DNA of 64,000 nucleotides from Shinella zoogloeoides (GTDB lineage Bacteria > Pseudomonadota > Alphaproteobacteria > Rhizobiales > Rhizobiaceae). Location: assembly GCF_030733845.1 (NCBI RefSeq), contig NZ_CP132312.1, positions 386,501-450,500 on the forward strand, given 5' to 3'. Below are positions 15,681 through 63,353 of the stretch, piece after piece. Under the pieces are notes generated by a model, which saw only the letters and a program-made list of their open reading frames with translations, made no database searches and was not told the origin of the DNA. A program made the translations under genes and the position numbers. Numbering within the stretch: position 1 is the stretch's first letter; every line of letters begins with the position of its first letter.

Positions 15681-15783
15681 GAGAATAAAAACCATGCGGC
15701 GGGCAAAATTCTTGCGGCAAAAGAGGAAGAAACGGGTTAGTCGATCGTCTAAGCTATAAGACGATACCGAAAGCCTGCTTCCC

Positions 15784-25504: not shown

Positions 25505-25656
25505 GTTTGTTCCCCAGTTTCGGGCCGGGCAGCCGCCGACCGATTTGTCCAGTGTATTCGCGGCGAAACGATACACAATGCAGGCATCCGCAGCGGTCCT
25601 TCATGAAAAAGGCGTATGAATCCTTGTATTCGTGTAGGAAATCGCCGCGAGGCGGG

Positions 25657-27186: not shown

Positions 27187-27434
27187 GAGACCTTTGTCCC
27201 CTGAAGCGTTCGGGAAGGCTCCCGCTCACAAGGCTACCGTCCGCGATCCTATCGCAAGCGGGCTCCCGCCAGCACCTTGACCAAATGAAGTAGGGCGGAT
27301 CGTCCCCATGGATAAGCCGATGGGCAGCCGCGGTGCTTGCCTTGACGGAGGCGTGGCTTCTTAATCAGGGAGCGGCGGGCTGGCGTTGAGATCCCAACGC
27401 GCCGGCGGTGGTTCATGGCGAAGGAGAATCGACG

Positions 27435-29028: not shown

Positions 29029-29153
29029 ACCGCTTCCTGAGGACCTGAACCTACGCCATTGGGCTTTGTTTTCAGGGACGGCAGACGGACATACGATCTA
29101 GATGTGCCTATCCAGGCTCTAGAGCGGGAAAGATGGCTGATCCGGGGTGTGCT

Positions 29154-31929: not shown

Positions 31930-31971
31930 GCGTTCAATGCGTTATTCCGCTTGATCCGGGAGTGCGGATTT

Positions 31972-35899: not shown

Positions 35900-35907
35900 G
35901 GGCGTTC

Positions 35908-40174: not shown

Positions 40175-40387
40175 GAACCCCACTCTTGTGACCCCTGCGG
40201 AACCGATGATCGGGATGATGGCGTGGGGCCGACGCACCTGCTGAACGCTGCCCCAGACCAGTAGCCCCGTCTCGGTTCTCGATTAAATGATGTATACCAA
40301 AACGCCGTGACGGCGGGGGGCTGCACAAAAGGGTAAGGCGGCCGTGCCGGGCTCCCTCAAAGGTGGATGCCTACCCGCGGCGGAGCC

Positions 40388-40791: not shown

Positions 40792-42231
40792 TCAGTAGAC
40801 CTTGCTGATGTCCTGGATGCAGACGACCGTGCGACAGATGATCTTCACGTCCAGCCAGAACGACCAGTTGTTGATGTACCAGAGGTCATGGTTGATGCGC
40901 TGCTCCATCCGGTCGACCGTCGGCGTCTCGCCGCGGCATCCGTTCACCTGGGCCCAGCCGGTGAGGCCCGGCTTCACATGCCGGCGGAAGGCGTATTGCT
41001 CGATCAGGCTGCTGTAGAGATCGTCATGGGCAAGGGCATGCGGGCGAGGACCGACCACGGACATGTCGCCGCGCAGCACGTTCCAGAGCTGCGGCAGTTC
41101 GTCGATGCTGGTCGAGCGGATGAACCGGCCGATCCGGGTCACGCGCTTGTCGTTCCTCGTTACCTGCTGCACCTCGCTGCCGTCTTCCATCACGGTCATG
41201 CTGCGGAATTTCAGGATGCGGAAAGGACGGTTGCCGTGTCCGTTACGGGACTGGACGAACAGGACCGGCCCGCGGCTCTCGATCTTGACCGCCAGCGCCA
41301 CGATGAGAAGCATCGGGCAAAGGGCGATCAGGGACACCAGCGCGAAGGCGATGTCGAAGCTCCTCTTCAGGCAGCGTTCGAGGAATGTCAGCGGCGGGCG
41401 CTGCGTCTGGAAGGCCGCCATGCCGCCGATACGCTCACAGCCGTAGCACACGATGCCGCCGAGAATGCCGTCGAAGACCACGTTGACGGGAAGGCTCGAG
41501 CGCCGGAGCGCCGTCAGGCAGGATTCCAACGCCGTGCTGTCGGCCTCGCTCCAGACGATCAGGATCTCGTCGATGTCGCCCGAGCCGACGCTCCGGAGAA
41601 TCTCGCCGGGAACAGGGTTTGCCGCATCCTCATCTGAAAGACGAATGATCTGCGTGATCGCCAGTCCGCTCTCCGCAGCCTTCTTCTCCAGACCATCGAC
41701 GGAAAAATCGCTGCGGCAGACCAGCAGCACCTGCTTCATCAGGAACGTGCCGTGGGCGATCGCATGCGGCAGGCGGTAGTGCCAGAGATAGCGGATGCAC
41801 ACGAGACCCGCCAGCGCCCCGGATGCGCCGAACAGCGTGGCGCCGCGCGAAAAAGTCGCGCCGAGTTTCAGGAAGAAGAGGACGGTGAACAGGAAAGCCA
41901 GCGTGCCGGTGAAGAGCACGCAGATGCTGAAGATCTGCTGTCCCGGCACGATCAGCTTTTCGGGCTGATAGGCCTGCGCGCAGCTCATGGCGAGGACAAA
42001 GATGGTGGCGACCACCAGTCCGATCCCGACATGCAGCGACCAGTCTTCATAGATGCCGAAGGCAAGGTATTCGTAGGTGAAGTAACCGAGCGTGCTGGCG
42101 CCGAATAGCCATATGAAATCAACCGCGGCGGCGATGTAGGCAATAGCCTCGTAGCTCAGCGCGCGCCGTGCGCGCAGCTGTCGGAGCGACGAATAGGGAA
42201 GCCCTGCTACAGGGTCGATATGCATAACCAT
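40792..42231 (-). CDS. Undecaprenyl-phosphate sugar phosphotransferase (WbaP/ExoY/WcaJ family)
   Basis: A 479-residue polyprenyl glycosylphosphotransferase that starts the repeat unit by moving a sugar-1-phosphate to undecaprenyl phosphate. There are four or five N-terminal membrane segments (residues 30-150), a central Rossmann-like domain, then the catalytic bacterial sugar transferase domain from about 285: LKFRSMTVMEDGSE, STSIDELPQLWNVLRGDMS, VGPRPHA, and KPGLTGWAQVNGCRGET. All family blocks are intact. Sugar specificity (glucose or galactose are usual) cannot be decided here. Confidence 0.93.
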   Translation of the reverse strand: MVMHIDPVAGLPYSSLRQLRARRALSYEAIAYIAAAVDFIWLFGASTLGYFTYEYLAFGIYEDWSLHVGIGLVVATIFVLAMSCAQAYQPEKLIVPGQQIFSICVLFTGTLAFLFTVLFFLKLGATFSRGATLFGASGALAGLVCIRYLWHYRLPHAIAHGTFLMKQVLLVCRSDFSVDGLEKKAAESGLAITQIIRLSDEDAANPVPGEILRSVGSGDIDEILIVWSEADSTALESCLTALRRSSLPVNVVFDGILGGIVCYGCERIGGMAAFQTQRPPLTFLERCLKRSFDIAFALVSLIALCPMLLIVALAVKIESRGPVLFVQSRNGHGNRPFRILKFRSMTVMEDGSEVQQVTRNDKRVTRIGRFIRSTSIDELPQLWNVLRGDMSVVGPRPHALAHDDLYSSLIEQYAFRRHVKPGLTGWAQVNGCRGETPTVDRMEQRINHDLWYINNWSFWLDVKIICRTVVCIQDISKVY

Positions 42232-42613: not shown

Positions 42614-43813
42614 TCAGCGGCCATCGTGCCGCGCGCGGTCCGTCCTGATCCAGCCGTCCCGAACCCGGCCCAGCATGAGACGTGGATAGAGGCCTATTTT
42701 CCCGAAGACATAGGCCGGAATGGACAGCAGCGAACGGGCGGGCAGCGTCTTGCGGCCGAATGCCGACCAGGCAAGCGCCGTTGCGCCGAGAAGCAGGGCC
42801 AGGTTGAAGGCGGCGATCGCCAGCGGCGCCAGCGAAAAGCCCATCATCGCCAGTCCGGCTGTGGCAAGCAGCACGGCGGCGAGAAGCAGGGCGAGAAGCG
42901 ATAGCGGCGGCACGATCACATCGAGCAGCATGGCGAAATAGTTTGGCTTTCGGTAGGTGGTCCCATCCAGCAGGGCCATGAGCGCGAAGCGCCCCATGCC
43001 GAGATGTCCGGCCTCCCAGCGCTGCCGCTGGGTTTGCGTTCCCTTCAGCGACGCCGGAAACTGGCTGGTGATCTGAGCATCGTCGCAAAAGCGCGGTGCA
43101 TGGCCTGCGCGGGCCAGATCGAGCCCGAGCTTCATGTCTTCGACCAGATGCGCATTGGCAAGCCGGGCCTTGGCGAGCACCGCCCAGGGAAAGGCCATGC
43201 CCGACCCGGTGAGCTGGCAAGGCAAACCGAGCGCCTTCAGCCCCAGTGGCCTTACCCGGTTCTTGACGAGGAAGGCGAAGGCTGCGACCGCCTGCCGGAC
43301 CGAAGCCCCGGGAGGGGCCGTCAGCAGGTAACGGGCCTGAATGGGTCGACCGTAAGCCAGCGCCGCGCGTGCCAATATGTCGATTGCATCCGGGCCGACG
43401 CGGCAATCGGCATCGATCAGGATGACCACCGGCGGCGGCGCTTCGGCCAAGGCGCTAATTCCGGCCGCGAGCGCATAGCCCTTGCCGCGATGCACCAGGT
43501 CCTGCCGCTCGATGACCCGCGCCCCGGCGCCGCGCGCCAGCACCGCCGTGCGGTCGTCGCAGTTGTCGGCGACGACGACCAGCCGGTCTTCGGCGCGCAG
43601 TTGCGGCCGGATGCTCGCCAGCGTCCGGCATATCTCGCTCTCCTCGTTATGGGCAGGCACGACCACGGCCACGGCAGGGCGGTCGCCCGCTCTCGGGGCA
43701 GGCCTGCGGGGAAGGGCAACCGCCGCGGTACATTCGGCGGCGTAGACCATTGTCGGAACGGACAGGGACGCCGACAGGAAAACGGCGACGGTGTTGAGGA
43801 GAGCATCCAGCAT
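42614..43813 (-). CDS. Processive-type glycosyltransferase family 2 membrane protein
   Basis: A 399-residue enzyme with an N-terminal TM segment, a GT2 domain and three or four C-terminal TM segments (about 295-375). It shows VAVVVPAHNEESEI, VVADNCDDRT, the DxD-type LIDADCR, TGSGMAFPW, and QRQRW, the (Q/R)xxRW motif seen in processive or membrane-embedded GT2 enzymes. The ATG at 43813 follows GGGGG; a farther upstream start is unlikely. It probably adds a beta-linked sugar of the repeat. Divergent from the WecG-like gene. Confidence 0.88.
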   Translation of the reverse strand: MLDALLNTVAVFLSASLSVPTMVYAAECTAAVALPRRPAPRAGDRPAVAVVVPAHNEESEICRTLASIRPQLRAEDRLVVVADNCDDRTAVLARGAGARVIERQDLVHRGKGYALAAGISALAEAPPPVVILIDADCRVGPDAIDILARAALAYGRPIQARYLLTAPPGASVRQAVAAFAFLVKNRVRPLGLKALGLPCQLTGSGMAFPWAVLAKARLANAHLVEDMKLGLDLARAGHAPRFCDDAQITSQFPASLKGTQTQRQRWEAGHLGMGRFALMALLDGTTYRKPNYFAMLLDVIVPPLSLLALLLAAVLLATAGLAMMGFSLAPLAIAAFNLALLLGATALAWSAFGRKTLPARSLLSIPAYVFGKIGLYPRLMLGRVRDGWIRTDRARHDGR

Positions 43814-44060
43814 ACGAACCCCCGGCCCGCATGGTTCTGCGGGTTCCACGAAGGAGAGTGTAAGAGGATGCGAAAATACCCCTCAATGCTCCCGGCTAAG
43901 ACCTTCGGGTGAAGCGAAGCTAGTGCTTTCTTGTCGGTGACGGTGCGTGTTGCGCCTTGCTCACCCGTTTTGATGCGGCCCGGGAGAATTGAGCCGGCCA
44001 CCCCGAAAGTTAGACTTTTATCGAACGCGGCGGCGGGCCGCAGGTCGGGGAGTCTGGTTG

Positions 44061-44855
44061 ATGGCAATCGTAGAGACGCATCCGCATGCCATGGCGTTTT
44101 CCGGTAAACGGGAGCGCATCTCGTTCCTCGGCGCGCCCTTCGATCCGCTCACGTCCGAAACCGTCGTGGATCTCCTCAAGGCCTCGGGCCCGGGCGTCCG
44201 CTTCCGCTACGTGGTGACACCCAATGTCGATCATGTCGTGCGGCTGAACAAGGATCGCACACTGGGCCGATACTATGACAAGGCCTGGCTGTCCCTGTGC
44301 GACAGCCGGCCGATCGCGGCGCTCGGCCGCCTCGTTTCCGTCCGGCTGCCGCTGGTGACGGGGTCCGACCTGACCGCTACCCTGTTCAGGTCAGTGATCG
44401 AGAGCGGCGACGTCATCAGCGTCATCGCCCCCAATCAGGCCCTGATGCGGGCATTGGAACGGACCTATCCCGGCATCCGGTTCCGCTCTTTCGTGCCGCC
44501 TTCGGGCGTCCTCACCAATGAGCAGGCGTTGCGCGATTGCGTGGAGTTCGTCGCCGGCGACGAGGCGCGATTCATCTTCATCTGCATCGGTTCGCCGCAA
44601 TCGGAGAAGATCGCTTCCGCGCTCGCCTTGCGGCCGGATGCGAGCGGAACGGCCTTCTGCGTCGGCGCCGCACTGGAATTCCTGGTGGGATCGAAGAGAC
44701 GCGCGCCGCTCTGGATGCGGCGGGTGGGGCTTGAATGGATGCACCGGCTCCTGTCCGATCCCGCGCGCCTCTGGCACCGCTATGCGTCCTCGGTATTGCC
44801 GCTGCTTATGCTGTTCACGGGCGAACTCGTCGGGCGGCCGAAACGGCCGGGATAG
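44061..44855 (+). CDS. WecG/TagA/CpsF-family glycosyltransferase
   Basis: A 264-residue GT26-type enzyme. Motifs: VTPNVDHVVRL with the catalytic-type Asp near residue 60, ICIGSPQSEKIA near 176, and the C-terminal WMRRVGLEWMHRLLSDPARL signature. The ATG at 44061 follows GGGGAG. Family members add N-acetylmannosaminuronic acid, N-acetylmannosamine or glucose to a lipid-linked sugar, commonly the second sugar of the repeat. It is convergent with the phosphopantetheinyl transferase gene (14 bases between stops). Confidence 0.92.
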   Translation: MAIVETHPHAMAFSGKRERISFLGAPFDPLTSETVVDLLKASGPGVRFRYVVTPNVDHVVRLNKDRTLGRYYDKAWLSLCDSRPIAALGRLVSVRLPLVTGSDLTATLFRSVIESGDVISVIAPNQALMRALERTYPGIRFRSFVPPSGVLTNEQALRDCVEFVAGDEARFIFICIGSPQSEKIASALALRPDASGTAFCVGAALEFLVGSKRRAPLWMRRVGLEWMHRLLSDPARLWHRYASSVLPLLMLFTGELVGRPKRPG

Positions 44856-44869: not shown

Positions 44870-45520
44870 TCAGGCGATCGACATCGCCGACACGATGTGG
44901 GCGCTCCGTAGGCGAATGCGGCCGGCCAGGCGGTCGCCGCGCCTGAAGGGCGGTACATCTCTCAGGAAATGTGCCGTGAAGCGCTCCTCGCCGAGATCCA
45001 TATCGACCGCGAGATCCTGGAAATCGAGCAGGGCGCCGCTGAGCGCATACTGGCATTTGTAGGCGCATTCCTTCGCGCTGAAGAGCGCCTTCAGCAGCAG
45101 GCCGCGGTGGTGGGAGGGTTGCCCGGCCAGCCAGGCGCGTTCCTGCGGCGTGCAGATTTCCTCGGCAAAGTCTTCGTCCAGCGGCTCGGCCTCCTCGATA
45201 TCGAGGCCAAGCGCAAGGAAACCGTCGGATCGCAGGGCCGCCGCCGCCGCGCAATGGGAACGGCTGTGGCTGATGCTGCCGACAAGGCCGTCCGGCCAGA
45301 GGGGTGCCCGGTCTCTGCCCATCGGCAGCGGCATCGGCGGCCGGCCGAGTTGCCCGATGGCATCGCGCGCACAGGCCCGGCCCGTTGCGAATTCATGGCG
45401 ACGGCGCGCGATGGCGCCCGCCATGGCGATCTCTTCTTCCGGAAACGGCGTTCCCTCCACGGCGGCGATCTCACGCTCGTCCGTGCGGATTGCCGCGGAG
45501 AACATACCCTTTAGCAGCAT
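44870..45520 (-). CDS. 4'-phosphopantetheinyl transferase (Sfp/EntD type)
   Basis: A 216-residue enzyme that arms carrier proteins with the phosphopantetheine arm of coenzyme A. Visible motifs: VGSISHSRSHCAAA, LGLDIEEAEPLDEDF with the metal-binding Asp-x-Glu, and LFSAKECAYKCQ, the KExxxK block. The ATG at 45520 lies one base after the NRPS stop, so it is translated with the NRPS. Its partners are clearly the carrier domains of the NRPS (Ser1470) and the PKS (Ser1811). Confidence 0.92.
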   Translation of the reverse strand: MLLKGMFSAAIRTDEREIAAVEGTPFPEEEIAMAGAIARRRHEFATGRACARDAIGQLGRPPMPLPMGRDRAPLWPDGLVGSISHSRSHCAAAAALRSDGFLALGLDIEEAEPLDEDFAEEICTPQERAWLAGQPSHHRGLLLKALFSAKECAYKCQYALSGALLDFQDLAVDMDLGEERFTAHFLRDVPPFRRGDRLAGRIRLRSAHIVSAMSIA

Positions 45521-45521
45521 G

Positions 45522-48500
45522 TCACACCATATCGCGGATGCGCTGCTGATCCGCACGGCGCTGACCGAGCGCGTTGCGGCGCATGGCGGCGCGATCCGCG
45601 ACCTTGCTGAGTTCTTCGCTGGCTTTGCCGCGATCGGAAAGATGGGCGGCGAGCGCCGATACGGTCGGGAAGCGGAAGATGTCGGTGATGGTGAGGTCAG
45701 GCGCGACGTTCGCCTTCAGGTCGCGATGGACCTGGACGGCGAGCAGCGAATGGCCGCCAAGCGCGAAGAAGCTGTCGAAAATGCCGACGCGCTCAAGCCC
45801 GAGCGCCCGCCGGAAGGTCTCGGCAATCGTTTGCTGCAAGGCATCGGTGGGTGGGGTGAAGATCGCCGCCGTCGATGCCTTGCTGACATCCTCGGGCCTC
45901 GGAAGCTGCTTGCGGTCCACCTTGGCGTTCGGCGTCAGCGGGAATTCCGCAAGCGTGATGAAATGGCCGGGGATCATGTAGTCCGGCAAAGACGCCGCCA
46001 GATGCTGCCGCAGGGCTTCGTCATCGACGGTGCCCGATGCGGTGCGCAGATAGGCCGCGAGACGCACGTCGCCCGCCTTGTCCTCCCGCGACATCACCAC
46101 CGTTTCGAGAATGCCGGGGAAGGCGGCGATCTTCGCCTCGATCTCGCCAAGCTCGATACGGTAGCCGCGCACCTTGACCTGATGGTCGGCCCGGCCGAGG
46201 AATTGCAACTGCCCGTCATCGGTGAAGCGCACGAGGTCGCCGGTGCGGTAGATGCGGCCGGGTGCGAAGGGGTTGGGCAGGAAGCGCTCGGCGGTCAGCT
46301 GCGCACGATTGAGGTAGCCGCGGGTCACCCCGTCACCGCCGATGTAAAGCTCTCCAGGCGTGCCTGGCGGAACCGGGTTTCGCGCTTCGTCCAGCACGTA
46401 GAGCTGGGTGTTGGCGATCGGCCTGCCGAGCGGCACGACGCCGTCCGTCGGCTTCGCCGTACCGGTGGACGACCATATGGTCGTCTCGGTCGGCCCATAC
46501 ATGTTCTCGACGTCGGCATCGGTGACATCGGCCAGTTCCGCCAGCAGCGAGCCGGGCAACGCCTCGCCGCCGATGAACAGGTGTTCCACCCCACCCAGCG
46601 CCTTGCGATCCTCCGGCGTGATCATGAACATGCGCGCCATGGAGGGCGTGCATTGCAGGTGGGTCACGCCATGCCTGCCGATCTGCTCCGACAGGGGCAC
46701 AGCGGCCTCCGCGTCCTCATGGCGCGGCGCGCGGACGTCTCTGACCACCTGTGCCAGCGGTTCCAGCCGTTCGAGCACGACATCGGACGGCAGGCCGAAA
46801 TCGATCAGGCAGGCGATGTCGTCCACGCCGATGGCCGCCATCTGCTCGATGCGCGTTCTTGCATCCTCCACGGTGCCGAACAGGCCGCTGTCCTCGAAAT
46901 AGCGCAGGAACGCGAATTCGAGGATGGCGTCCATCTCCTCCGGCGCCAGCGACTGGAGGTCGATGTCCATCGGCTGGGAAACGCCCTGCGGCTTCTTGAA
47001 GGCGGGGAAGGCCCAGGCATATTGCTTGATGAGCGCGGCGGCGCTGCGCAGGTAGTCCTTCATCGGCTCGCGCGCCAGTTCGCGCACCTCCTCCCGGTCA
47101 TCCCCGAGAAGCGTGTGCAGCATGACGGTGACGCTATGGTTCGCCGGGTTGCGCCCGACCTCGACGAGCGTTTCACGGTAGATGCGGATCTTGTCCGCCA
47201 GCTCGTCGATGGACTGGCCGAGAAGATGCGTCAGGACATTGGCGCCTAGGCGGGCGGCTTCCCGATAGGTTTCCGGATTGCCCGCCGTCGTCAGCCAGAT
47301 CGGCAATTCCTTCTGGACGGGACGCGGCTGGGTGACGACGCCGACCTGGCCGGTGCCGAAATCGAAATCGACACTTTCGCCGCGCCACAATTTGCGCACC
47401 GTTTCTATGTCGCGGATCATGCTCGCCTTGTTGTGCGGCGGGGCGTTTTCGGGGCGCAACACGAAATCCTCGGGCATCCAGCCGGAGGCGAAGGCAAGGG
47501 CGACGCGGCCGTTGCTGATATTGTCGATGACCGCCCATTCCTCGGCGACGCGCAAGGGATGATGCAGCGGCAGGACGCAGCTGCCGGCGCGGATCGAAAG
47601 GTTGCTCGTCACGGCGGCCACGGCCGCGCCGGTGACGGAAGGGTTCGGATAGGGGCCGCCGAAGGCGTGGAAATGCCGCTCGGGCGTCCAGACGGACTGC
47701 AAGCCGTTGCGGTCGGCGAACTTCGCGCCTTCGAGCAGCAGGCGATATTTCGCCGGGCCCGCACCCGCGTCGTTGCCCCAGTAGAACAGGCCAAAGTCCA
47801 TGGGCCTGCCGGCGGCGGTGCGGGGCGAGCGCGCCGCCTTGCCGCGGCTTGCCTCGTTGACGTGGACGACCACCTTGAAGCCCCGCGCCAGCGTCCAGAA
47901 GAGTTCCAGGACCGAGATGTCGAAGGAGAGGCTGGTTACCGCCAGCCATACGTCCTGACGATCGCCGCCACGCGCGATGCGCTCGTCCATACCGGCGAAG
48001 AAATTGACGACGTTGCGATGCTCGACCATCACGCCCTTCGGCAGGCCCGTCGAGCCGGACGTGTAGATCACATAGGCAAGGTTCTCCGGCGCCGCGCCGC
48101 CCGCGGGACGCTCTGTCCGCCGCTCGCTTGCCAGCACGTCCTCGATGCAGAGCGTATCCACGCCGGAAAGCGCCGCGAAACCGGCATGGCTGCGCTCGGT
48201 CAGCACGATCTTCGCGCCGGAATCCTTGACCATGAAGGCGAGCCGGTCCGCGGGGAAATCGGGATCGAGCGGCACATAGGCCCCGCCCGCCTTCTGGATC
48301 GCCAGCGCGCCGATCACGAGATCGGGTGAGCGCGGCAGGTGCAGCCCTACCGGGACATCCGGCCCTACGCCGCGCGCGATGAGCGCATGGGCGATGCGGT
48401 TCGCCCGTTCATCCATTTCGCGATAGGTCAGGGAGCGGTCACCGAAGCAGAGGGCGGCCGCCTCGGGCATGCGATCGACCTGCCGTTCGATCAGGCCATG

Positions 48501-50156
48501 CACGCAGGCGGTGCGCTCATAGGTGCAGTCCGTGCTGTTCCAGTCGTAGAGGATTTTCTGCCGTTCTTCCGATGACAGAAGCGGCAGTTCGGCTATTTGC
48601 GTGGAGCCCTCGTCGAAATGTGCGGCGAGAACGCCGAGACGCCGCGCAAGGGCCGCTACCCGCTCTTCGCTGAGACGGGTGGCGTCATAGACAAGTCGGC
48701 TGCCTTCCGCGCCGAAGTGGAAGACGAGGGCGCATGTGCCCAGTGGCTCGCTGCCATTGGCACTTTCACCATCCATGATGCCGACGGAAAGGCGCGGCTC
48801 CCGCAGGTGCGGATAACGTTCCACGATGTCGCCGAGACAGGTTTTCCGCGTCCTCGCCTTGTCGAGGGCATCCTGCACGGCATTCTTGAAGTCGGCGACC
48901 ATAACGCCCTCGGCGGCCTCGACGCGCAAGGGTGTGGAGCCAGCGAAATGGCCGGGATGTCGGGCGCAGAGGTCGAGGATTTCGTCGCTGGTATAGGCGA
49001 GATCGAATTTTTTCTGTCCCGTCAGCCGAACGAGCAGCGCGGCGAGCAGTGCGGTGCGCGCTGCCGTGTCCATTCCCGCCGGCAAGGGCAGGGGCATGCT
49101 GCGGATTTGCGGCGCGACGGCCGGATCGTGTGCCTTCACGTCGTTGAGGTCGACATCCTCTGGGGTCTCCAGCGACCGCCGGAGAGCGGCCTCATGCGGC
49201 ACCACGATGGCGATGGCGGCGGTCAGGGCCTCGACCTCGGCTTCGTCGGGGATCGGAAGCCTCATGCCCGGAGCGACGACGGAGGAGAGCGAGACGATGT
49301 CGTTCCCCCTGCGAAGCCTGCCTTCTAGTGAAATGGCCTTGTCCGCCGTCGCGATAACCGCCTCGTCCGCGCCGGTCGAGATGACCGTTCCCGGTGCCTC
49401 GGCGCAGGCGTCGAGAACCCGCAGCCGCGTGATCGTGAACAGGTCCGCCCCGGCGCGTAGCTTGGGGAGCACCAGCCGGTTGATGTAGCCCGGGCCGAAG
49501 TCGAGCGCCCGCACGAGGCGGGAAAGCTCTTCGGCCGGCCGGTCGAGGCGCAGGAGCGGAGAGGGGCGGTCGTGCCGCCCGAAATAGGCGCGCCCGGCGG
49601 TGTCCTGCCGGCGCGGGGCCGGCATGCCATGTTCGAGATCGGCGAGCATGGTGTTGAAGGTCGCAATGCCGGCCTCGAAGCATTTCGTGTTGAGCGTCAG
49701 CGCCGTCTCGTCGGGGCCGATGTCGAATTCCTGCGAGGCGTATATGTCCCCCTCGTCGATGCCGGCGGTGATGGCGTGCCAGCGGACGCCATGGCTTGTC
49801 GCACCCTTGAGGATCGCCCAGCTCGGCGTGTTGAGACCTGCAAGCTCCGGCAACGGGCCGTCGTGGAAATTGACCGCTCCGCAGCGCGCCTTGCGCCAGA
49901 CGGCTTCGGGCACGAGCCGCAGGTTGGCGATGCTGAAAAGCCAGTCATACTGGAATGGGCCAAGGCGGTCGGCAAGATCGCTGCCGGGCTCGATGGTGGG
50001 GATCGCCTTTTCCGTCGCCCATTGGCGGACCCTCGGGCTGGCGGTCACGACCACCGCGATGGCGTGCCCGCGAGAAAGGAGGGTTTGCGCGCATTGCGCC
50101 AGCAGCAACTCGTCGCCGATCACGGCGCAGGTCAGCTTTGTCATCTCTGTCACCAT
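45522..50156 (-). CDS. NRPS: formyltransferase - half condensation - adenylation (with inserted luciferase-like monooxygenase) - carrier
   Basis: A 1,544-residue multidomain protein. Residues 1-290: formyltransferase fold with the Asn-His-Asp set N96, H98, D134 ([16 protein letters not shown] and GIDEGDIY). About 300-530: only the C-terminal half of a condensation domain, without HHxxxDG. About 535-785: first part of an adenylation domain ([15 protein letters not shown]). About 786-1135: a complete FMN-dependent luciferase-like monooxygenase (begins [13 protein letters not shown]; MupA/Atu3671 type). From 1140: rest of the adenylation domain ([13 protein letters not shown] near 1217, NAKVDRKQL). 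Carrier domain with Ser1470 (GGHSL). It probably loads one amino acid, formylates and oxidises it, then passes it to the PKS. An ATG at 50144 is an alternative start. Confidence 0.9.
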
Positions 50157-50472
50157 CCAAAGCCTGAAACATGATCGTTTCGATGAAATCTTCCGACGGT
50201 GGAAAGATCAACATGCACGACCCTGCGCATAAGGTTTAGCCCGCCAAGAGGATGGGAGGAGAGCGATACGCCCCCCCTTTCTTTGGGAGTAGCACGCACC
50301 CCGCCCGCTGACCGAAAGACGTAATTGTGCTTGTGCAGTTGCAGGTCACAATCGAAGACTGCAGCAGGTCTCCTGCCGCACAGGTTTTCTATGAATCCGG
50401 TCACGAAAGAGGGGGCCGCAAGCTGGCGGTGGTTCATCAAGAATACCCGCGGCAGTTCGGCGGTCGAGTAAC
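50157..50472. promoter_or_regulatory. Divergent NRPS/PKS promoter region
   Basis: A 316-base region between two divergent assembly-line genes, with no open frame that looks coding. It must contain the promoters of both; I could not place -35/-10 boxes with confidence. Sharing it implies joint control of NRPS and PKS. Confidence 0.45.
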
Positions 50473-53400
50473 ATGCTGGACAGTTCAGGTCAGGATACCA
50501 TCAGCGACATCGCGGTCGTCGGCATGGCGTTGCGTGTGCCGGGAGCCCGCAATGTCGGGGAATTCTGGCGCAATCTGCGCGATGGCGTGGAATCCATCCG
50601 CAGCCTTACACCGGACGAGCTTGCCCAGGCGGGCGAGGCGCCGGACCGCATCCATCATCCGAACTATGTGCGCCGCACGGCGGACCTGCCCGACATGGAC
50701 CAGTTCGACGCCGATTTCTTCGGTCTCAGCCCGAAGGAAGCCGCGATCATGGACCCGCAGCACCGCCAATTCCTCGAATGCGCCTGGGAGGCGATGGAGG
50801 ATGCCAACCGGACGCCGGACAGGAGCAACGGCCCCGTCGGCGTCTTTGCCGGCTGCGGCATGGGCAGCTACTTTTATTTCAACGTCTGCAGCAACCGCCA
50901 GCTCGTCGACCAGGTCGGCATGTTCCTGCTGCGCCATACCGGCAACGACAAGGACTTCCTGGCGACGCGCGCGTCCTTCACGTTCAACCTGCGCGGCCCG
51001 AGCGTCAACGTCCAGACGGCCTGCTCCACATCGCTCGTCGCCATCCATTACGCCAGCCAGAGCCTGCTGAACGGCGAATGCGACATGGCGCTGGCGGGCG
51101 GTGTGACCGTCGAGTTCCCGCATGCCAGAGGCTATCTCTACCAGGAGGGTGAGATTCTTTCGCCCGATGGCCATTGCCGCGCCTTCGACCATCGCGCCGC
51201 CGGAACCGTGTTCGGCAGCGGCGTCGGCATCGTCGTCCTGCGGCGTCTGGCGGATGCGCTCGCCGACGGCGACGTCATCCATGCGGTCATCAAGAGTTCG
51301 GCGATCAACAACGACGGCGGCAACAAGGCCGGCTATCTGGCGCCGAGCGTGACGGGACAGGCGGAGGCGATCATCGAGGCGCAGGCGCTCGGCGGTATTT
51401 CGGCGGATTCCATCCAGTATGTCGAATGCCACGGCACCGGCACGGCCATCGGCGATCCGATCGAGATCCAGGCCCTGACGGAGGCTTTCCGGCAGAGCAC
51501 GAAACGGACCGGTTTCTGCCGTGTCGGCTCCGTCAAGACCAATATCGGGCATCTCGATACGGCGGCCGGCGTGGTCGGCCTGATCAAGGCGGCGCTGGCG
51601 CTCAAGCATGGGGAAATCCCGCCCACGCTGGGTTTCGAAAAACCCATTCCGGCCATCGATTTCGAGGCCAGCCCTTTCCTGGTGGCCGACAGGCTGACCG
51701 AATGGCCCGCCGGGAGCGGTCCGCGGCGGGCGGCGGTCAATTCGCTCGGCGTCGGCGGCACCAATGCCCATATCATCCTGGAACAGGCGCCCGCTCGCCA
51801 GATCCGCCGGGCGGCGGCGGAAGAACCGCTGCTGCTGTTTCTCTCCGCCCGCCAGCGCAAGGCGGTGGAACAGGCTGCCGGGCAATTGGCCACGAGGCTT
51901 TCGGACGAGCCGGATATCGCGCTCGGCGATGTCGCCCACACGCTGTTTTCCGGCCGCCGGCATTTCGAGCATCGCATGGTGCTGGCGGCCGGCAACCGGG
52001 AGGAGGCGATCGCAATCCTTTCCGATCCTAAATCCAAGCGCGCCTTCGTGCATTCGCCGGTCGAAGCCAATGCGGGTGCGGTCTTCCTGTTCCCCGGCGG
52101 TGGCGCCCAGCACACGGGCATGGCCCGATGCCTCTATCAGGGGGACGCCGCCTTCCGTGCCACCATCGACGAGGGGCTGTCCTATCTTCCGCCCGAAGCG
52201 GCGGAGGAAATCCGTTCCGTCTGGCTCGGCGCGGGCGGTGCGGACGCTGCCAAGGCCTTTCAACAGCCCTCGGTGCAATTGCCCGCGATCCTGATCCTCG
52301 AAATCGCGCTCGCCCGCCTGTGGATGTCCTGGGGCGTCGCGCCGGTCGCCCTTCACGGCCATTCGATGGGGGAGAACGCGGCGGCCTGCGTCGCCGGCGT
52401 GATGAGCTTGCGCGATGCCGTGCGGCTGGTGCGCCTCCGCGGCGAGCTTTTCGACAGCATCGAACCGGGCGGGATGCTCAGCGTTCCGATGGACCATGAA
52501 AGCCTGCTGGCGCTGCTGCCGCCCGAACTCGACGTCGCATCCGTGAACGCCCCGGGCCTTTGCGTCGTGTCGGGCCGCAACGGCGATCTGGAAGCTTTCC
52601 GTGCCAGCCTTGAAAAACGCGGCGTGGAGGCGTCCCGCATCCCCATCGATATCGCGGCGCATTCGCGCATGCTGGATACGATCCTGCCGCGCTTCGAGGC
52701 CTTCCTGCGCAGCATTTCCCTGCATGCGCCGGCCATCCCGATCATTTCCAACCGCAGCGGCGGCTGGCTGACGGCGGCAGAGGCCACCGATCCCTCCTAT
52801 TGGGCGCTTCACCTGCGCTCGACGGTGCTGTTTGCCAAGGGCATGGAAACGCTCGGGCAAAGGGCGGGACACATCTATATCGAGGTGGGGCCGGGACGCG
52901 TACTCTCCTCGCTCGCCAAGGCGCAGGGCAGCATCGAAACGAACCGGATCATCAACAGCCTGCCGCACCCGGATGAAGACTGCGACGACCGGCAGCATTT
53001 CACCTGCGCGCTCGGGCGTGCCTGGGCGACGGGCCTTCCCGCCGCGGTGTCCCGCCTCATCGAAAGGCACAAGCCCAATCTGGTGACGCTGCCGACCTAT
53101 CCGTTCCAGCACCGGCGCTACTTCATCGAAAGGACCGCAAGCACGGGGTCGCAGGATGCGGACGAAAAGCCCGTCATCAAGGAAGCGGACATGACCCGCT
53201 GGGGCTACCGGCCGGCCTGGAAACAGGCGCTTGCCGACTATGTCAGCGGGGCCGAGGCGACGATCCGCACATGGCTGTTCTTCCTCGACGAAGCCGGCGT
53301 CGGTGCGCAACTGGCCGAGCGGCTGCGCGGGCTTGGGCATCGCGCCGTCACGGTTTCCCTCGGCGACGCCTTTTTCCGGCGTGATGCCGATCATTACGTG

Positions 53401-56400
53401 CTGTGCGCGGAAGCGGGAAGGGCGGGTTACGATGCGCTCTTCTCCGGGCTGGCGGCCGATGGCGCCCTGCCGAGCCGCATCGTCCATATGTGGCTGCTGA
53501 CGGAAACGGAAAGCTTCCGTCCCGGCTCGAACTTCTTCCACCGCAATCAGGAATGCGGCTTCTACAGTCTGCTGCATCTCGCGCAGGCGCTGGGTGGCGT
53601 CGCGACGGCCGACGACCTGCATGTCACCGTCGTGACCAACGGCATGCAGCGCGTGGCGGACGAGGGGCTTGCCTATCCCGAAAAGGCCACCGTGCTCGGC
53701 CCCGGCCTCGTCATGCCCAGGGAGATGCCGGGCGTGACGGTCAGGTTCGTCGATGCCGAACTGGACAAGCCCGCCGAAAGGCAGTCCTTCATCGACCGAT
53801 GGAGAAATAAGCGCCGCGACCGGCCGGACCGGAACGGCCGACCGCTTGCCGAAACCCTTTGGGACGACCTGCTAGCAGTGCCGGCATCGGAAGTGATTGC
53901 CTATCGCAAGGATCGCCGCTGGCTGCGCGTCCATGACAGGCTGCCATTGCAGGATGGCGCCGGCGGCGAGGCGATGTTCCGGGAGAAGGGCGTCTATCTC
54001 TTCACGGGCGGCCTCGGCGACCTCGCCTTCGTCATGGAGAATGAACTGGCGGAGCGCTTCAAGGCAAGGCTCGTGCTCGTCGGACGCACCCGTCTTCCGC
54101 CGCGCGGCGAATGGCAGGCCTATGATCTTCTGCATGGCTACGACGCTGTGCGCCGCGCGACCTCCGTCATCCGCCGGCTGGAGGCGAAGGGTGCGCAGGT
54201 CCTCTACCTCACGGGCGACGTCACCAATCCGCAGGATATGGAGGACGTCGTCGAAAAGGCGCTGGCGCGGTTCGGCGAAATCAACGGTGTCTTCCACGCC
54301 GCCGGCATGGTGGACGACGACCTCATGCAGTCCAAGTCCGAGGACCGCATCGAGCGCGTGCTGGCGCCCAAGGCGCTCGGCACGACGGTCCTGGATGCGG
54401 CCTTCGAAAAGGTCGCCCTGGATTTCGTCATCCTGTTTTCCTCGACCAGTACCGATATCGCGCCGGCCGGGCAGGCGGACTATGTCGCCGCCAATACCTA
54501 TCTCAATGCCTATGCCGAAAGCCGGGCGCACAGGACGGACCGGCGGACGGTCGCCGTTCACTGGGGCATCTGGAACGAGGTGGGGATCGCCGCGCGCGCG
54601 TCGCATGCGGCGCCTGCCGCAGGTGCCGCCCTGCCGGTATCCGGCGCGGCGAAGGGACCGTTCTTCCAGCACTGGGTGGAGGATGCGGACGGCGTGCCGT
54701 GGCTGGAAGCCGTGGTCGGTCCGGGGACCCATTGGGTACTGGACGAACACCGGCTCGTTTCCGGCCAGTCTGTCATGCCCGGCGCGGCCTATGTCGATCT
54801 TATCGCGCAGGCCGCGCGGGAATACGACCTGCCCGGCGCGCTGGAGATCAAGGATCTGGTCTTTCTGCGCCCGCTCGTCGTGAACGACGGCGAGACCCGG
54901 ACGATCCGGCTGCGCTATGTGCAGCTTCCCGAAGGATATCGCGTCCTCCTGACGGCGGCGCGCGAGGGCGGCGGATTCGAGAAATATGTCGAGGCGGAGG
55001 TGAAGGCGAGCCCGGACGGCACCCACCGCGTTCGGGACATCGCTCCGGTTATGGCGCGCTGTGGTACCTGGCAAATGGCCGAGGCAGGGGGCAGCCTGCG
55101 CGCCGCGCAGGAAGATCACATCCGTTTCGGGCCGCGCTGGGGCGTGTTGAAATCCATCGCCTACGGGCGCGGGGAAGCTTTGGCCGAGCTGCAGCTGGCG
55201 GCCGCCTTCAAGGGCGACAACGAGGCCGGCGTCCTCATCCACCCCGCGCTGCTCGATCTTGCGACCGGCTTTGCGATGGGCCTGATCGCGGACTACGATC
55301 CGGCGTCCGTGCTGTGGGCGCCCGCCACCTATGGGCATATCGTGGTTGCCAAGCCGCTCCCGACCCGCATCCTGAGCTGGGTCCGGCTTGCCGACAGCAG
55401 CGATTTCGGCAGTGATTATGCCGCGTTCGACGTCACCATCGTCGCGCCGGATGGCGAAATCCTGATCGACATCAAGAACTTCGTCATCCGCCGTCTCGGC
55501 CACGACCTGAGTTTCGCCGAGCCGTCATCACTGGCGGACATCCGTTCGCCGGAGGACCCGGTGCGGCGGCCACCGCCGTCGCCCGCCCTTTTGAAGCTGG
55601 AGGCCATGGTGCGGCAGGGCATTCTGCCCGCCGAGGGCTTCGAGGCGCTGGTGCGGGCGCTCGGCACGCGCGAAGTGCAGCCGATTCTCAGCTCGATCGG
55701 CCTAGAAACGCTCTGCGCCCGCGCAAGGCAGGCCGAGGAGCAGCTTTCCGCGCCAAGCATCGGCTTCGAGCGCCCCGAACTGGAAAGCGAGTATGTCGCG
55801 CCGCGCAACCCGGTCGAGGAGACGCTTGCCGGCTATTGGCGGGAGTTGCTCGGCGTCGGACAGATCGGCATCCATGACAGCTTCTTCGACATGGGCGGCC
55901 ACTCGCTGATTGCCGTTCGGCTTTTCCGCATGATCAAGGGGCAGTACGGCATCGACTTTCCGATTTCCGTGCTGTTCGAAGCGCCGACCATTGCCCAGTG
56001 CGCCGATCTCATTCTGGCGCAGAAGCCGGGGGCAGGAGAAACGGACGCGGCGGATTCGGAGGTGCGCGAAGCGGCGCCCACCAAGAGCACGCTCACCCAT
56101 CTCGTTCTCATGCATCCGGGCAAGAACAGGGTGGGCATTCCGCTGTTCGTCTGCGCCGGCATGTTCGGCAACGTGCTCAATCTGCGGCATCTGGCGTTGA
56201 CGCTCGGTGCCGACCGGCCGGTCTATGGCTTGCAGGCGCGGGGGCTCTACGGGGACCACGAGCCGCATGAAACCTTCGAGGAGATGGCGCGCGACTACAT
56301 CGCCGAAATCCGGACCGTGCAGCCGGCAGGTCCCTATCTCCTGGCGGGCTATTCCGGCGGCGGCATCGTCGCCTATGAGATCGCCCAGCAACTGGTGGCG

Positions 56401-56994
56401 CAGGGAGAAGAAGTCTCCCATCTGGTAATGCTGGATACGCCCCTGCCGACACAGCCGCCCCTCCATCTGCACGACCGCGTGCTGATGAAGCTGCAGGACA
56501 TACGTCGCCACAGGGGGGCGTTCGTCCGCAACTGGCTGAACGATCGTCGGCGCTGGGAAACGGAGAAGCGGGAAAAACGCCTGGCGGAGGCCCGCGATGT
56601 CGCGCCCGAGCAGTTCAACAACAGCAGGATCGAAAGCGCGTTCCTGCGGGCGCTGCGCTGCTACGAGCTGAAGCCATATGGCGGGGAGGTCACCCTCCTG
56701 CGGCCGAAGCCGGCGGTGCATTACCGCCTCACCGGCGGGCGCTGCCTGCAGCAGAACCGTAACATTCTGCTCGCCGACAACGGCTGGACGCCGCATGTCC
56801 CGAGCCTCAGCGTGCACGAGGTTCCCGGCGACCACGACAGCATGGTCCTGGAGCCCTACGTGCGGGTGCTTGCGGAGAAGATAGCCACGAGCGTCAGAAC
56901 GACAATGCCTGTCCCCGGTATCGAGCCCGGCGAAGGGGCCGGATGCGAAACGCAGGTTCGTGCCCGGTCGAGAAGACTTGGCGAGCCTGCCTGA
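50473..56994 (+). CDS. Type I polyketide synthase, KS-AT-KR-DH-ACP-TE
   Basis: A 2,173-residue single-module PKS. Ketosynthase (residues 12-440): Cys184 in TACSTSL, His320 in ECHGTG and His360 in NIGH. Acyltransferase (about 535-850): Ser631 in GHSMGE, with specificity block IAAHS instead of HAFH or YASH. Ketoreductase: LFTGGLGD near 1175 and Tyr1337 (ADYVAANTYLN). Dehydratase: His1426 (DEHRLVSGQSVMPG) and Asp1595 (HPALLDL). Carrier: Ser1811 (GGHSL). Thioesterase: Ser1961 (GYSGGG) and His2121. All reductive active sites look usable; no enoylreductase. It likely extends the NRPS-bound acyl unit by two carbons to an alpha,beta-unsaturated acid and releases it. Confidence 0.92.
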   Translation: MLDSSGQDTISDIAVVGMALRVPGARNVGEFWRNLRDGVESIRSLTPDELAQAGEAPDRIHHPNYVRRTADLPDMDQFDADFFGLSPKEAAIMDPQHRQFLECAWEAMEDANRTPDRSNGPVGVFAGCGMGSYFYFNVCSNRQLVDQVGMFLLRHTGNDKDFLATRASFTFNLRGPSVNVQTACSTSLVAIHYASQSLLNGECDMALAGGVTVEFPHARGYLYQEGEILSPDGHCRAFDHRAAGTVFGSGVGIVVLRRLADALADGDVIHAVIKSSAINNDGGNKAGYLAPSVTGQAEAIIEAQALGGISADSIQYVECHGTGTAIGDPIEIQALTEAFRQSTKRTGFCRVGSVKTNIGHLDTAAGVVGLIKAALALKHGEIPPTLGFEKPIPAIDFEASPFLVADRLTEWPAGSGPRRAAVNSLGVGGTNAHIILEQAPARQIRRAAAEEPLLLFLSARQRKAVEQAAGQLATRLSDEPDIALGDVAHTLFSGRRHFEHRMVLAAGNREEAIAILSDPKSKRAFVHSPVEANAGAVFLFPGGGAQHTGMARCLYQGDAAFRATIDEGLSYLPPEAAEEIRSVWLGAGGADAAKAFQQPSVQLPAILILEIALARLWMSWGVAPVALHGHSMGENAAACVAGVMSLRDAVRLVRLRGELFDSIEPGGMLSVPMDHESLLALLPPELDVASVNAPGLCVVSGRNGDLEAFRASLEKRGVEASRIPIDIAAHSRMLDTILPRFEAFLRSISLHAPAIPIISNRSGGWLTAAEATDPSYWALHLRSTVLFAKGMETLGQRAGHIYIEVGPGRVLSSLAKAQGSIETNRIINSLPHPDEDCDDRQHFTCALGRAWATGLPAAVSRLIERHKPNLVTLPTYPFQHRRYFIERTASTGSQDADEKPVIKEADMTRWGYRPAWKQALADYVSGAEATIRTWLFFLDEAGVGAQLAERLRGLGHRAVTVSLGDAFFRRDADHYVLCAEAGRAGYDALFSGLAADGALPSRIVHMWLLTETESFRPGSNFFHRNQECGFYSLLHLAQALGGVATADDLHVTVVTNGMQRVADEGLAYPEKATVLGPGLVMPREMPGVTVRFVDAELDKPAERQSFIDRWRNKRRDRPDRNGRPLAETLWDDLLAVPASEVIAYRKDRRWLRVHDRLPLQDGAGGEAMFREKGVYLFTGGLGDLAFVMENELAERFKARLVLVGRTRLPPRGEWQAYDLLHGYDAVRRATSVIRRLEAKGAQVLYLTGDVTNPQDMEDVVEKALARFGEINGVFHAAGMVDDDLMQSKSEDRIERVLAPKALGTTVLDAAFEKVALDFVILFSSTSTDIAPAGQADYVAANTYLNAYAESRAHRTDRRTVAVHWGIWNEVGIAARASHAAPAAGAALPVSGAAKGPFFQHWVEDADGVPWLEAVVGPGTHWVLDEHRLVSGQSVMPGAAYVDLIAQAAREYDLPGALEIKDLVFLRPLVVNDGETRTIRLRYVQLPEGYRVLLTAAREGGGFEKYVEAEVKASPDGTHRVRDIAPVMARCGTWQMAEAGGSLRAAQEDHIRFGPRWGVLKSIAYGRGEALAELQLAAAFKGDNEAGVLIHPALLDLATGFAMGLIADYDPASVLWAPATYGHIVVAKPLPTRILSWVRLADSSDFGSDYAAFDVTIVAPDGEILIDIKNFVIRRLGHDLSFAEPSSLADIRSPEDPVRRPPPSPALLKLEAMVRQGILPAEGFEALVRALGTREVQPILSSIGLETLCARARQAEEQLSAPSIGFERPELESEYVAPRNPVEETLAGYWRELLGVGQIGIHDSFFDMGGHSLIAVRLFRMIKGQYGIDFPISVLFEAPTIAQCADLILAQKPGAGETDAADSEVREAAPTKSTLTHLVLMHPGKNRVGIPLFVCAGMFGNVLNLRHLALTLGADRPVYGLQARGLYGDHEPHETFEEMARDYIAEIRTVQPAGPYLLAGYSGGGIVAYEIAQQLVAQGEEVSHLVMLDTPLPTQPPLHLHDRVLMKLQDIRRHRGAFVRNWLNDRRRWETEKREKRLAEARDVAPEQFNNSRIESAFLRALRCYELKPYGGEVTLLRPKPAVHYRLTGGRCLQQNRNILLADNGWTPHVPSLSVHEVPGDHDSMVLEPYVRVLAEKIATSVRTTMPVPGIEPGEGAGCETQVRARSRRLGEPA

Positions 56995-57053
56995 GCATCG
57001 AGATGGCGCCCGCCCGCGAAGGGACGCGTAGATGAGGAATAGGGAGAGAGGGA

Positions 57054-58553
57054 TTGGCGTCTGTCATACGTTCCACCACGGGCGCCGATAAGCACTCCTC
57101 AAGCGACGAGGCACGGGAACAGTCTGACGTCTCCAGCCCGGCCTCCGTGGCCGAAGAGCCGCCGGCCGCGCCCGCTCGAGGAGGTTTTCGGGGTCCGATT
57201 CTTCAGGCGGCAAGCTGGTCCATGGGCGGCTATATCGCCTCCCAGTTCCTGCGGATTTTCAGCAATCTCATCCTGACGCGGCTGCTCGTGCCCGAAATGT
57301 TCGGCCTTATGGCCGTCGCGACCATGGTGCAGATCATCATCTTCATGCTGTCCGACATCGGGCTGCGGCAGGCGGTCATTCAGAGCAAGAGCGGCGACTC
57401 CCGCGATTTCCTCGATACGGCCTGGACGCTGCAGGCGATCCGCGGCTTCCTGATCTGGTTTATCTGCATCGCCGTTGCGCTTGCCTTCGCCGAGGCGAAC
57501 CGGCTGGGGGCCTTCGCGGCCGGGTCCGTCTATACATCGACAGAGCTACCCTCGATCATCATCACCGTGGCCTTCACCTCCGTCATCGGCGGCTTCCAGT
57601 CGACGAAGCTCATCTCCTGCGCCCGCCATCTCGATCTCGGGCGCGTGACGGCCATCGAGATGCTTTCGCAGATCGTGGGCCTCATCGTCGCGATCGCGCT
57701 GGCGTGGCTGACCCGCTCGATCTGGTCTTTCGTCGCGTCCGCGCTGGTCTCCTCGCTCGTCCTCACCATCCTCAGCCACACGCATATTTCGGGCTACGCC
57801 AACCGTTTCCGTCTTGAGCCGAAGGCGACCGGGGAACTCCTGCGGTTCGGCCGTTGGATCATGCTGTCGTCGACCTTTTCGGTGTTCGCGTCCAATGGCG
57901 ACCGCGTGTTGCTTGCGGGCTGGATCAGCCAGGCCTCGCTCGGTCTCTACGTCCTTGCCTACAGCCTCGTCGCGATCCTCGAGGGCGCTGGCGGCCGCCT
58001 GTTTACCTCCGTGGCCTCGCCGACGCTCAGCAAGGTGACGCGCGAACGTCCGGAAATGCTGCGCAGCGTCTATTACAAGTTCCGTTTGCCGTTCGACATG
58101 TTCTTCGTCGGTGGCGCCGGTCTCCTCTATGGATCAGGTGAGGCGATTATCGATGTTCTCTATGACGATCGATATTCCGGGGCCGCAATCATTCTTCAGA
58201 TATTGTCCTGTGGATTGTTGGTTTCAAGATTTACAGTATTTTCATTGGTTTACATCGCGTTGGACGAAGTCCGTTACCTGAGTTTTCTAAATATCGTCAA
58301 GGCAATATGCCTTTTTACAATCGTTCCTGTTTGTTATTGGCTTTTCGGGTTCAACGGTGCGTTGTGGGCGATTGCCCTGCATGCATTGCCGACTGTACCG
58401 ATGATCCTATACCTAAATAGACGATATGGGCTAAATAGCCTCTTCTTCGAAGCCGCAATTCTGTTATTATGGCCCGTGGGATATGTATTGGGAAGTCTAT
58501 TTTCCCACGCGCTGGAAAGCCTTTACGGACTGGGGGATGCCTTCCTTCGGTGA
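57054..58553 (+). CDS. Oligosaccharide flippase (Wzx-like, MATE/MOP superfamily)
   Basis: A 499-residue polytopic protein with about 12 hydrophobic segments (from residue 50 onward) and the N-terminal block ILTRLLVPEMFGLMAVATM typical of polysaccharide flippases. It moves the lipid-linked repeat across the inner membrane. The start is a TTG at 57054, chosen because it follows a very strong ribosome site (AGGGAGAGAGGGA) and the next ATG would remove the first membrane helix. It has an unusual hydrophilic N-terminal tail of about 45 residues. The final 120 codons are markedly richer in A/T than the rest. It sits 59 bases after the PKS. Confidence 0.9.
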   Translation: MASVIRSTTGADKHSSSDEAREQSDVSSPASVAEEPPAAPARGGFRGPILQAASWSMGGYIASQFLRIFSNLILTRLLVPEMFGLMAVATMVQIIIFMLSDIGLRQAVIQSKSGDSRDFLDTAWTLQAIRGFLIWFICIAVALAFAEANRLGAFAAGSVYTSTELPSIIITVAFTSVIGGFQSTKLISCARHLDLGRVTAIEMLSQIVGLIVAIALAWLTRSIWSFVASALVSSLVLTILSHTHISGYANRFRLEPKATGELLRFGRWIMLSSTFSVFASNGDRVLLAGWISQASLGLYVLAYSLVAILEGAGGRLFTSVASPTLSKVTRERPEMLRSVYYKFRLPFDMFFVGGAGLLYGSGEAIIDVLYDDRYSGAAIILQILSCGLLVSRFTVFSLVYIALDEVRYLSFLNIVKAICLFTIVPVCYWLFGFNGALWAIALHALPTVPMILYLNRRYGLNSLFFEAAILLLWPVGYVLGSLFSHALESLYGLGDAFLR

Positions 58554-58687
58554 GCGGTGATTTTCAGAAAGGTCCCTGAAACCTGTGCGTGGGGTCGTTG
58601 GAGCGGTCGGAACCGGAAAACCGGTTCGTGACCTCGCCGTCGATCTTGCGCCCTGTTCCCGTTGTTTTGCAAGGTGGCGTCGTTGCG

Positions 58688-61160: not shown

Positions 61161-61170
61161 GATCTGGTTC

Positions 61171-63342: not shown

Positions 63343-63353
63343 GTGCTTCCCCT

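Follow-up and report, generated by a model that had tools for sequence, protein, structure and literature searches.

The 64,000-nucleotide stretch of Shinella zoogloeoides analysed here (NZ_CP132312.1, positions 386,501 to 450,500; hereafter the window) lies on a contig of 514,212 bases, the genome totalling 5.18 Mb, and profile searches with Pfam and NCBIfam show that its block at 44870-58553 holds genes for a phosphopantetheinyl transferase (PPTase), a non-ribosomal peptide synthetase (NRPS), a one-module polyketide synthase (PKS), and a Wzx-type flippase. NRPS and PKS together form a two-protein line that probably supplies the surface polysaccharide encoded here with a small building block other than a sugar, and because the line and the coat genes usually occur together in related bacteria, the product is likely to be an unusual chemical ornament of the coat. 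On the window's side of the NRPS tree, the data support a functional tie between the assembly line and surface polysaccharide. Annotation usually treats assembly lines and polysaccharide loci separately, and in our judgement loci of this kind would be entered as orphan small-molecule clusters; should the line serve the glycan, a large NRPS family needs re-reading and a new class of surface chemistry would exist in soil and marine bacteria.

The loci of relatives compared here are the best 80 of 98 candidates from a scan of genome contigs in several phyla. The 72 NRPSs placed in a tree (rooted at the midpoint for display) are divided by a branch with SH-aLRT 99, and the window belongs to the side of 59 rows, in which Hyphomicrobiales and Rhodobacterales predominate, beside two Myxococcota and a few further Alphaproteobacteria; the 13 rows on the other side include Chloroflexi, Ramlibacter, Omnitrophota, a planctomycete, and others. 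Genes were called with a caller trained on NRPS/PKS genes, polysaccharide genes were labelled by profiles grown from the window proteins (E < 1e-6), and the counts take in loci of 16 kb or more. Two or more polysaccharide genes are present in 42 of the 47 long loci on the window's side (after removal of one locus of an identical pair, of the window, and of the congeneric genome G001, and without counting the family 2 glycosyltransferase GT2a) compared with 2 of 19 random 20-kb stretches (p ~ 1e-9), all of the latter from the window's genus (L098 gave three genes in the first gene-calling pass). With GT2a counted, polysaccharide genes number at least two in 47 of all 63 long loci and are absent from 12. 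The five of the 47 with fewer than two such genes are L011, L018, L035, L038, and L075, and GT2a adjoins the NRPS in L035 and L038; on the other side of the tree, L061 (Sphingomonas) is a complete polysaccharide locus that includes GT2a, and GT2a neighbours the NRPS-PKS pair in L036 and L068. In the polysaccharide-free loci, Pfam scans of the neighbours (28 proteins of L046, L056, and L059; 33 of L065, L067, L069, L043, and L057) gave ABC transporters, dehydrogenases, and similar families among the matches listed, which covered 25 of 52 families each time, so that a single glycosyltransferase could be hidden.

The association recurs in clades with different gene order. An annotated Ruegeria plasmid carries PKS, GT2, and NRPS genes among glycosyltransferases and acyltransferases, an annotated Aminobacter plasmid agrees with the association, and a Deinococcus plasmid has an NRPS relative and a PKS beside capsule genes. 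Among 20 other genomes of the window's genus, only G001 has the NRPS (78% identity), in a locus with homologues of at least ten window locus genes, GT2a included. Judged by the random stretches and by the co-occurrence counts, a chance neighbourhood of the line and the polysaccharide genes is unlikely. It is also very improbable that polysaccharide loci and NRPS-PKS genes coincide only through gathering on accessory replicons; the 514 kb size of the window's replicon and the plasmid location of several relatives would suit this explanation, but the copy in Shinella sp. PSBB067 lies on a 4.6 Mb replicon, and neither the frequency of the association within one clade nor the specificity of the partner genes described below is what it predicts. 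Identical NRPSs were seen on two contigs of one Ectorhizobium genome (L015 and L071), reflecting either duplication or an assembly artefact.

Within the window's family, Rhizobiaceae, the NRPS query matches 19 of 297 genomes, 14 of them closely (at least 56% identity), and a close PKS (at least 58% identity) is found in exactly these 14; both cut-offs were chosen after the lists had been seen, with gaps below them (next 47% and 46%). Four of the other NRPS matches, at 43-47% identity, pair with a different, larger PKS (39-40%; the NRPS match of G161 covers 551-1534 only), and the fifth (G193, 46%) comes from a ~930-contig assembly. At the search cut-off, the PKS query matches 29 of the 297 genomes, consisting of the 14 close ones, these four, and 11 with PKS matches at 37-46% and no NRPS hit. 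Among the 80 loci, 65 contain a PKS match, and in 9 of the other 15 the sequence on one side of the NRPS is shorter than 2 kb. Distances between NRPSs correlate with those between PKSs (r 0.95 over 51 loci); organismal shared ancestry contributes to this value, and other locus genes correlate too (0.67-0.94).

The glycosyltransferase GT2a is a partner of the pair. It was found (E <= 1e-50) in 11 of the 297 family genomes, namely 9 of the 14 close ones plus G193 and G109, or 2 of the 283 others, and in every NRPS genome that has it, GT2a lies on the NRPS contig within ~24 kb (12 kb in the window). In a sample of the class, NRPS is present in 5 of 289 genomes, with GT2a (E <= 1e-40) in four of these five and in none of the 284 others; it is adjacent to the NRPS in the three GT2a genomes outside the order. 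Of the tree's 23 Rhodobacterales loci, 22 have a GT2a match above 120 bits, and GT2a stands between PKS and NRPS in many Rhodobacterales loci. By profile, GT2a is similar to GT2 enzymes, chondroitin synthase domains among them (E 4e-20), and a single-sequence search gave no solved-structure match. G109 is the sole genome of the 297 with a GT2a match (C127:4025-4906, 37%) and no NRPS hit; its assembly is fragmented, and it belongs to the same genus as G193, which has both.

A second partner, an SGNH-like secreted protein, came from neighbour clustering in 59 loci outside the mixed set and is present in 17 of them. It occurs in 7 of the 14 close genomes and in none of the 283 others, and all five close genomes lacking a strong GT2a match carry it, although a GT2a profile finds weaker GT2 relatives in these five as well. 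The GHSL, Gly, and DxxH residues expected in blocks I, II, and V are invariant (17/17), which makes the protein a candidate SGNH enzyme; the family matches are weak, with Pfam giving only DUF4886 in 4 of 17 (best E 0.0026) and solved structures matching at E 0.0089 and 0.44. Searched with a profile, 7 of 18 further genomes were positive: in G191, G253, G323, G490, and G588 the gene is close to the NRPS or GT2a, G001 has it ~20 kb away from the NRPS, and in G261 it sits on a different contig. A profile search of 141 family genomes gave 4 positives, all NRPS-bearing. Single-sequence searches find GT2a, the SGNH-like protein, or both in every close genome (9 + 7 - 2 = 14, chance ~0.01), but mutual exclusion is not claimed since profiles find the SGNH-like protein and weaker GT2 relatives in further genomes.

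The NRPS begins with a formyltransferase domain (Formyl_trans_N, residues 53-163; 48.6 bits, cut-off 26.1) and ends with a PP-binding carrier (residues 1442-1506) that retains its serine, and the interval between formyltransferase and adenylation domain (~300-540) resembles, by eye, the C-terminal half of a condensation domain. The AMP-binding match falls into two stretches, interrupted at residues 788-1137 by a luciferase-like monooxygenase (LLM) of the MupA/Atu3671 family TIGR04020 (471.6 bits, curated cut-off 244.45). The insert sits between a ten-residue motif near 745-754 and MYGPTE near 1219-1224, which we take to be motifs A4 and A5 of the adenylation domain. The ten specificity positions read DILQFGMIWK, and the pattern DILQ-x-G-[ML]-[IV]-W-K holds for all 72 NRPSs aligned, the window's and those of 71 relatives (three rows, L014, L023, and L073, end before the last position). 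By this code, the substrate is probably glycine: the accessible text of one source gives DILQVGLIWK as a predicted glycine code (PMC4169593), and that of another gives DILQLGMIWK as common to four glycine domains with an inserted monooxygenase domain (PMC12283262). The N-H-D triad of the formyltransferase is present in 71 of the 72 NRPSs, including the window's, and its place ahead of the adenylation and carrier domains predicts a formylating initiation module. The triad reads H-H-E in L049, a Myxococcales NRPS that lies among polysaccharide genes. The wider family is large, with 6744 proteins at E <= 1e-100 over residues 1-1160 among 7998 scored candidates, many of which may be other NRPSs.

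The PKS is a reducing modular type I enzyme in which KR (1173-1369) precedes DH (1401-1677). The KS cysteine and both histidines, the AT serine, the KR tyrosine and asparagine, the DH histidine and aspartate, and the ACP serine are conserved in 52 of 52 PKSs compared, and the TE serine in 50 of 52. One extension by malonyl (the AT choice following motifs that we take to be malonyl-specific), reduction, and dehydration are predicted from these conserved residues.

Parts of this arrangement are known from other systems. The best solved-structure match of the whole NRPS is the initiation module of LgrA from linear gramicidin (6mfz, 807 bits), which also has a formylating start; it reportedly loads valine, whereas the window's NRPS has a glycine code, a monooxygenase in its adenylation domain, and a PKS following it. 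The myxothiazol and melithiazol modules, presumably MtaG and MelG, end their lines and cleave the chain to a terminal amide, whereas the window's module comes first and is followed by the PKS. The window's NRPS shares with them both a glycine code and a monooxygenase between A4 and A5. As far as the accessible text goes, their glycine adenylation domains carry an alpha-hydroxylating flavin monooxygenase at that position, and the monooxygenase domain of solanimycin SolF lies between A8 and A9 (PMC10204066). The top NCBIfam match was SolG, and the accessible text on solanimycin assigns the monooxygenase to SolF (PMC9765074). In necroxime biosynthesis, oxygenase, dehydratase, and methyltransferase domains are proposed to convert a glycine primer to an oxime; the glycine primer, oxygenase domain, and DH of that line, and by cluster comparison those of oximidine and lobatamide, are as in the window's line, but the necroxime-type lines are large and multimodular, lead to benzolactones, and include a methyltransferase, and the accessible text does not name a formyltransferase (PMC7318616). 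PuwE (6ket) matches the LLM insert with 359 bits and, like MupA, belongs to the TIGR04020-type family. MupA is free-standing, unlike the inserted LLM, and is described in the accessible text as hydroxylating the alpha carbon of a beta-ketoacyl-ACP (PMC10952193). A search of titles and abstract openings in the open-access literature gave no paper linking an NRPS-PKS to a polysaccharide locus (two Pseudovibrio papers among the results concern a hybrid NRPS-PKS), the accessible text on one polysaccharide plasmid names no NRPS (PMC3764935), and an open-access search on Atu3671 found nothing.

Taken along the line, the PPTase would arm the carriers of both proteins, and the NRPS would load glycine and N-formylate the glycyl unit, which the LLM would then oxidise. 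Given the A4-A5 position shared with myxothiazol and melithiazol, the alpha-carbon chemistry of MupA, and the oxime of necroxime, alpha-hydroxylation is most likely and N-hydroxylation a serious alternative. The original prediction of an N-formyl, oxidised amino-alkenoyl unit is in this way narrowed to glycine by the code, with the monooxygenase at the myxothiazol/melithiazol-type position. The PKS would add one malonyl unit, reduce, and dehydrate, and its thioesterase would release a C4 acid of the 4-formamido-crotonate type with one extra oxygen. This unit may be joined to the glycan via GT2a in the cytoplasm or by SGNH-type acyl transfer in the periplasm, and the decorated glycan would be exported through Wzx/Wza. 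A specific form of this scheme, in which a dedicated glycosyltransferase glycosylates the C4 acid, an N-acyl hemiaminal or hydroxamate, and so makes it part of the polysaccharide repeat, is possible but rather doubtful; if true, it would join assembly-line chemistry with glycan assembly across Rhizobiales, Rhodobacterales, and beyond, and the coat could gain metal-binding or cross-linking groups. The unit might instead be a once-per-chain cap or anchor, linking the glycan for example to the envelope. The WecG-like gene and the flippase that flank the block would fit this, as would the rhizobial rkp region, where PKS/FAS-like genes for the K antigen lie inside a surface polysaccharide locus and are taken to be lipid-related; a single module yields only a C4 chain, too short for a lipid anchor, which makes this role improbable. 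The rkp region is not known to contain an NRPS, formyltransferase, or LLM.

Several observations weigh against a building block made for the polysaccharide. Among the more distant relatives with this domain set, 2 of 11 long loci (flanks up to 10 kb) have at least two polysaccharide genes, and since the same module type stands without such genes in most of them, the line can also have other roles, perhaps in making free products. Three loci (L031, L052, and L070) have no PKS match within 9 kb on either side of the NRPS, and the Deinococcus NRPS (L107:10933-15096) aligns over adenylation, LLM, and carrier regions, not the formyltransferase region. The GT2a profile finds weaker GT2 relatives in 10 of 10 NRPS-bearing genomes scanned that lack a strong match, so that the specificity of GT2a depends on the cut-off, and a profile search gave no match to the SGNH-like protein in the window's own genome. 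GT2a and SGNH-type enzymes are only candidates for joining the acid to a sugar, and the terminal thioesterase fits release of a free acid. The window's KR reads TGGLGDLA, one glycine short of what we take to be the usual nucleotide-binding motif, so that reduction is likely but not assured.

Part of this evidence would suit a free secreted product, such as a metal chelator, signal, or antibiotic, that shares the polysaccharide neighbourhood and perhaps its regulation. NRPS-PKS-PPTase sets normally yield free products, a thioesterase terminates this line, 9 of the 11 long distant loci have fewer than two polysaccharide genes, and an N-hydroxylated formyl-glycine would be a hydroxamate. This explanation is nonetheless unlikely, though the strongest of the rivals, as close PKS and close NRPS coincide in 14 of 14 genomes, GT2a and the SGNH-like protein hardly occur elsewhere, and the association survives changes in gene order between clades. 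Siderophore receptor and uptake genes were not seen among the Pfam-scanned window proteins, the rest of the genome not having been searched for them. A building block for the polysaccharide is preferred for the window's clade. The earlier expectation that the NRPS-PKS-PPTase set travels with exopolysaccharide (EPS) genes and belongs to the locus stands there, where GT2a and the SGNH-like protein also track the NRPS-PKS pair, and mostly fails in the distant relatives; the two partner genes provide direct handles on the attachment step.

The features of the locus are listed in Table 1. The priming transferase, glycosyltransferases, flippase, polymerase, and export protein together make up a Wzx/Wzy-dependent locus.

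Table 1. Genes and long open frames of the polysaccharide locus and assembly-line block, in window coordinates.
Feature	Coordinates	Strand	Basis
OafA-type acyltransferase, AT3 + SGNH domain	19660..21783	+	PF01757 and PF19040
GMC oxidoreductase-SDR fusion	21627..24182	+	Pfam; part has homologues in Neorhizobium loci
GT4 glycosyltransferase	24188..25576	-	PF00534, 106 bits
Wzy-type polymerase/ligase (Wzy_C)	25657..27186	-	PF04932, 49 bits
Secreted protein, Tat-like signal, glycan hydrolase-like by eye	27408..28961	+	Inspection
Wza-type export protein	29133..30413	+	PF02563, 60 bits
Wzz/GumC-like chain-length protein	30457..31929	+	Assigned by position; no Pfam match over cut-off
BY-kinase-like P-loop protein	31951..32784	+	By eye; no Pfam match
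GT2a, family 2 glycosyltransferase, NRPS-PKS partner	32833..33801	+	Pfam GT2; co-occurrence
Gfo/Idh/MocA + sugar epimerase domains, long open frame	33806..36589	-	Pfam
GT4 + GT2 domains, long open frame	35908..38616	-	Pfam; overlaps neighbouring frame, start uncertain
SDR/epimerase-type frame	38112..39497	-	PF01370, 60 bits; overlaps neighbours, start uncertain, dropped by gene caller
Gfo/Idh/MocA oxidoreductase	39032..40237	-	Pfam
WbaP/ExoY-type priming sugar transferase	40792..42231	-	PF02397, 234 bits
GT2b, family 2 glycosyltransferase	42614..43849	-	Pfam
WecG/TagA/CpsF-like glycosyltransferase	43989..44855	+	TIGR00696, 64.5 bits, just below cut-off 69
Sfp-type PPTase	44870..45556	-	Pfam 4PPT_N 85 bits, ACPS 56 bits
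NRPS, 1544 aa, formyltransferase - split adenylation domain with LLM - carrier	45522..50156	-	Pfam, NCBIfam
PKS, 2173 aa, KS-AT-KR-DH-ACP-TE, one elongation module	50473..56994	+	Pfam; residues compared
Wzx-type flippase	57054..58553	+	PF13440, 145 bits; homologue adjoins PKS in many loci

Family searches place the PPTase, NRPS, and PKS genes between the WecG-type gene and the flippase, as had been read from the letters alone, and likewise bear out a formylating, monooxygenase-bearing NRPS with a single PKS module and the presence of the OafA-type and GMC-SDR genes. The PPTase gene shares 35 bases with the 3' end of the NRPS gene and is one of only two ACPS-family matches in the whole genome (the other is a 203-aa frame on contig C2), which fits the description of an assembly line with its own PPTase. 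The claim of EPS genes on both sides stands for the left (Wza, Wzy_C, glycosyltransferases, and the WbaP-type gene); on the right, it hangs on the flippase, as the scanned genes beyond are a DUF535 gene and an HlyD/ABC pair.

Homologues of the secreted protein at 27408-28961 occur in 10 of the 59 related loci clustered, and the protein itself gave no Pfam match over the cut-off and no solved-structure match. A block homologous to the 33806-36589 frame is present in several Rhodobacterales loci, and the whole 33806-40237 set (Gfo-SDR, glycosyltransferase fusion, SDR, and Gfo) recurs in several such loci bearing the NRPS-PKS pair at 55-66% identity (SDR lower, 34-41%), which hints at a shared repeat unit. 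Beside the locus on the Ruegeria plasmid (L105:24799-28713), a UbiA-type prenyltransferase, GtrA, an FAD oxidoreductase, and an SDR stand in a row that looks like a prenyl-phosphate-sugar pathway. Near the WbaP gene of Neorhizobium-type loci, L003, L004, and L005 among them, lie genes for an AMP-dependent ligase and a pyridoxal-phosphate-dependent decarboxylase (families read on L003 only); such a pair is known from exosortase-linked polysaccharide loci. To the right of the flippase, the DUF535 protein (58589-59737) is followed by an HlyD-type adaptor and an ABC exporter of type I secretion (59820-63933), which adjoin the locus and probably form a separate unit, as Ensifer plasmids match the query over the exporter DNA alone. 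At the other end of the window, 571-17541 holds a separate, catabolic-looking set comprising a xanthine permease, a molybdopterin oxidoreductase, amidohydrolases, UbiD, a flavoprotein, a gamma-glutamyltransferase, and an ABC transporter.

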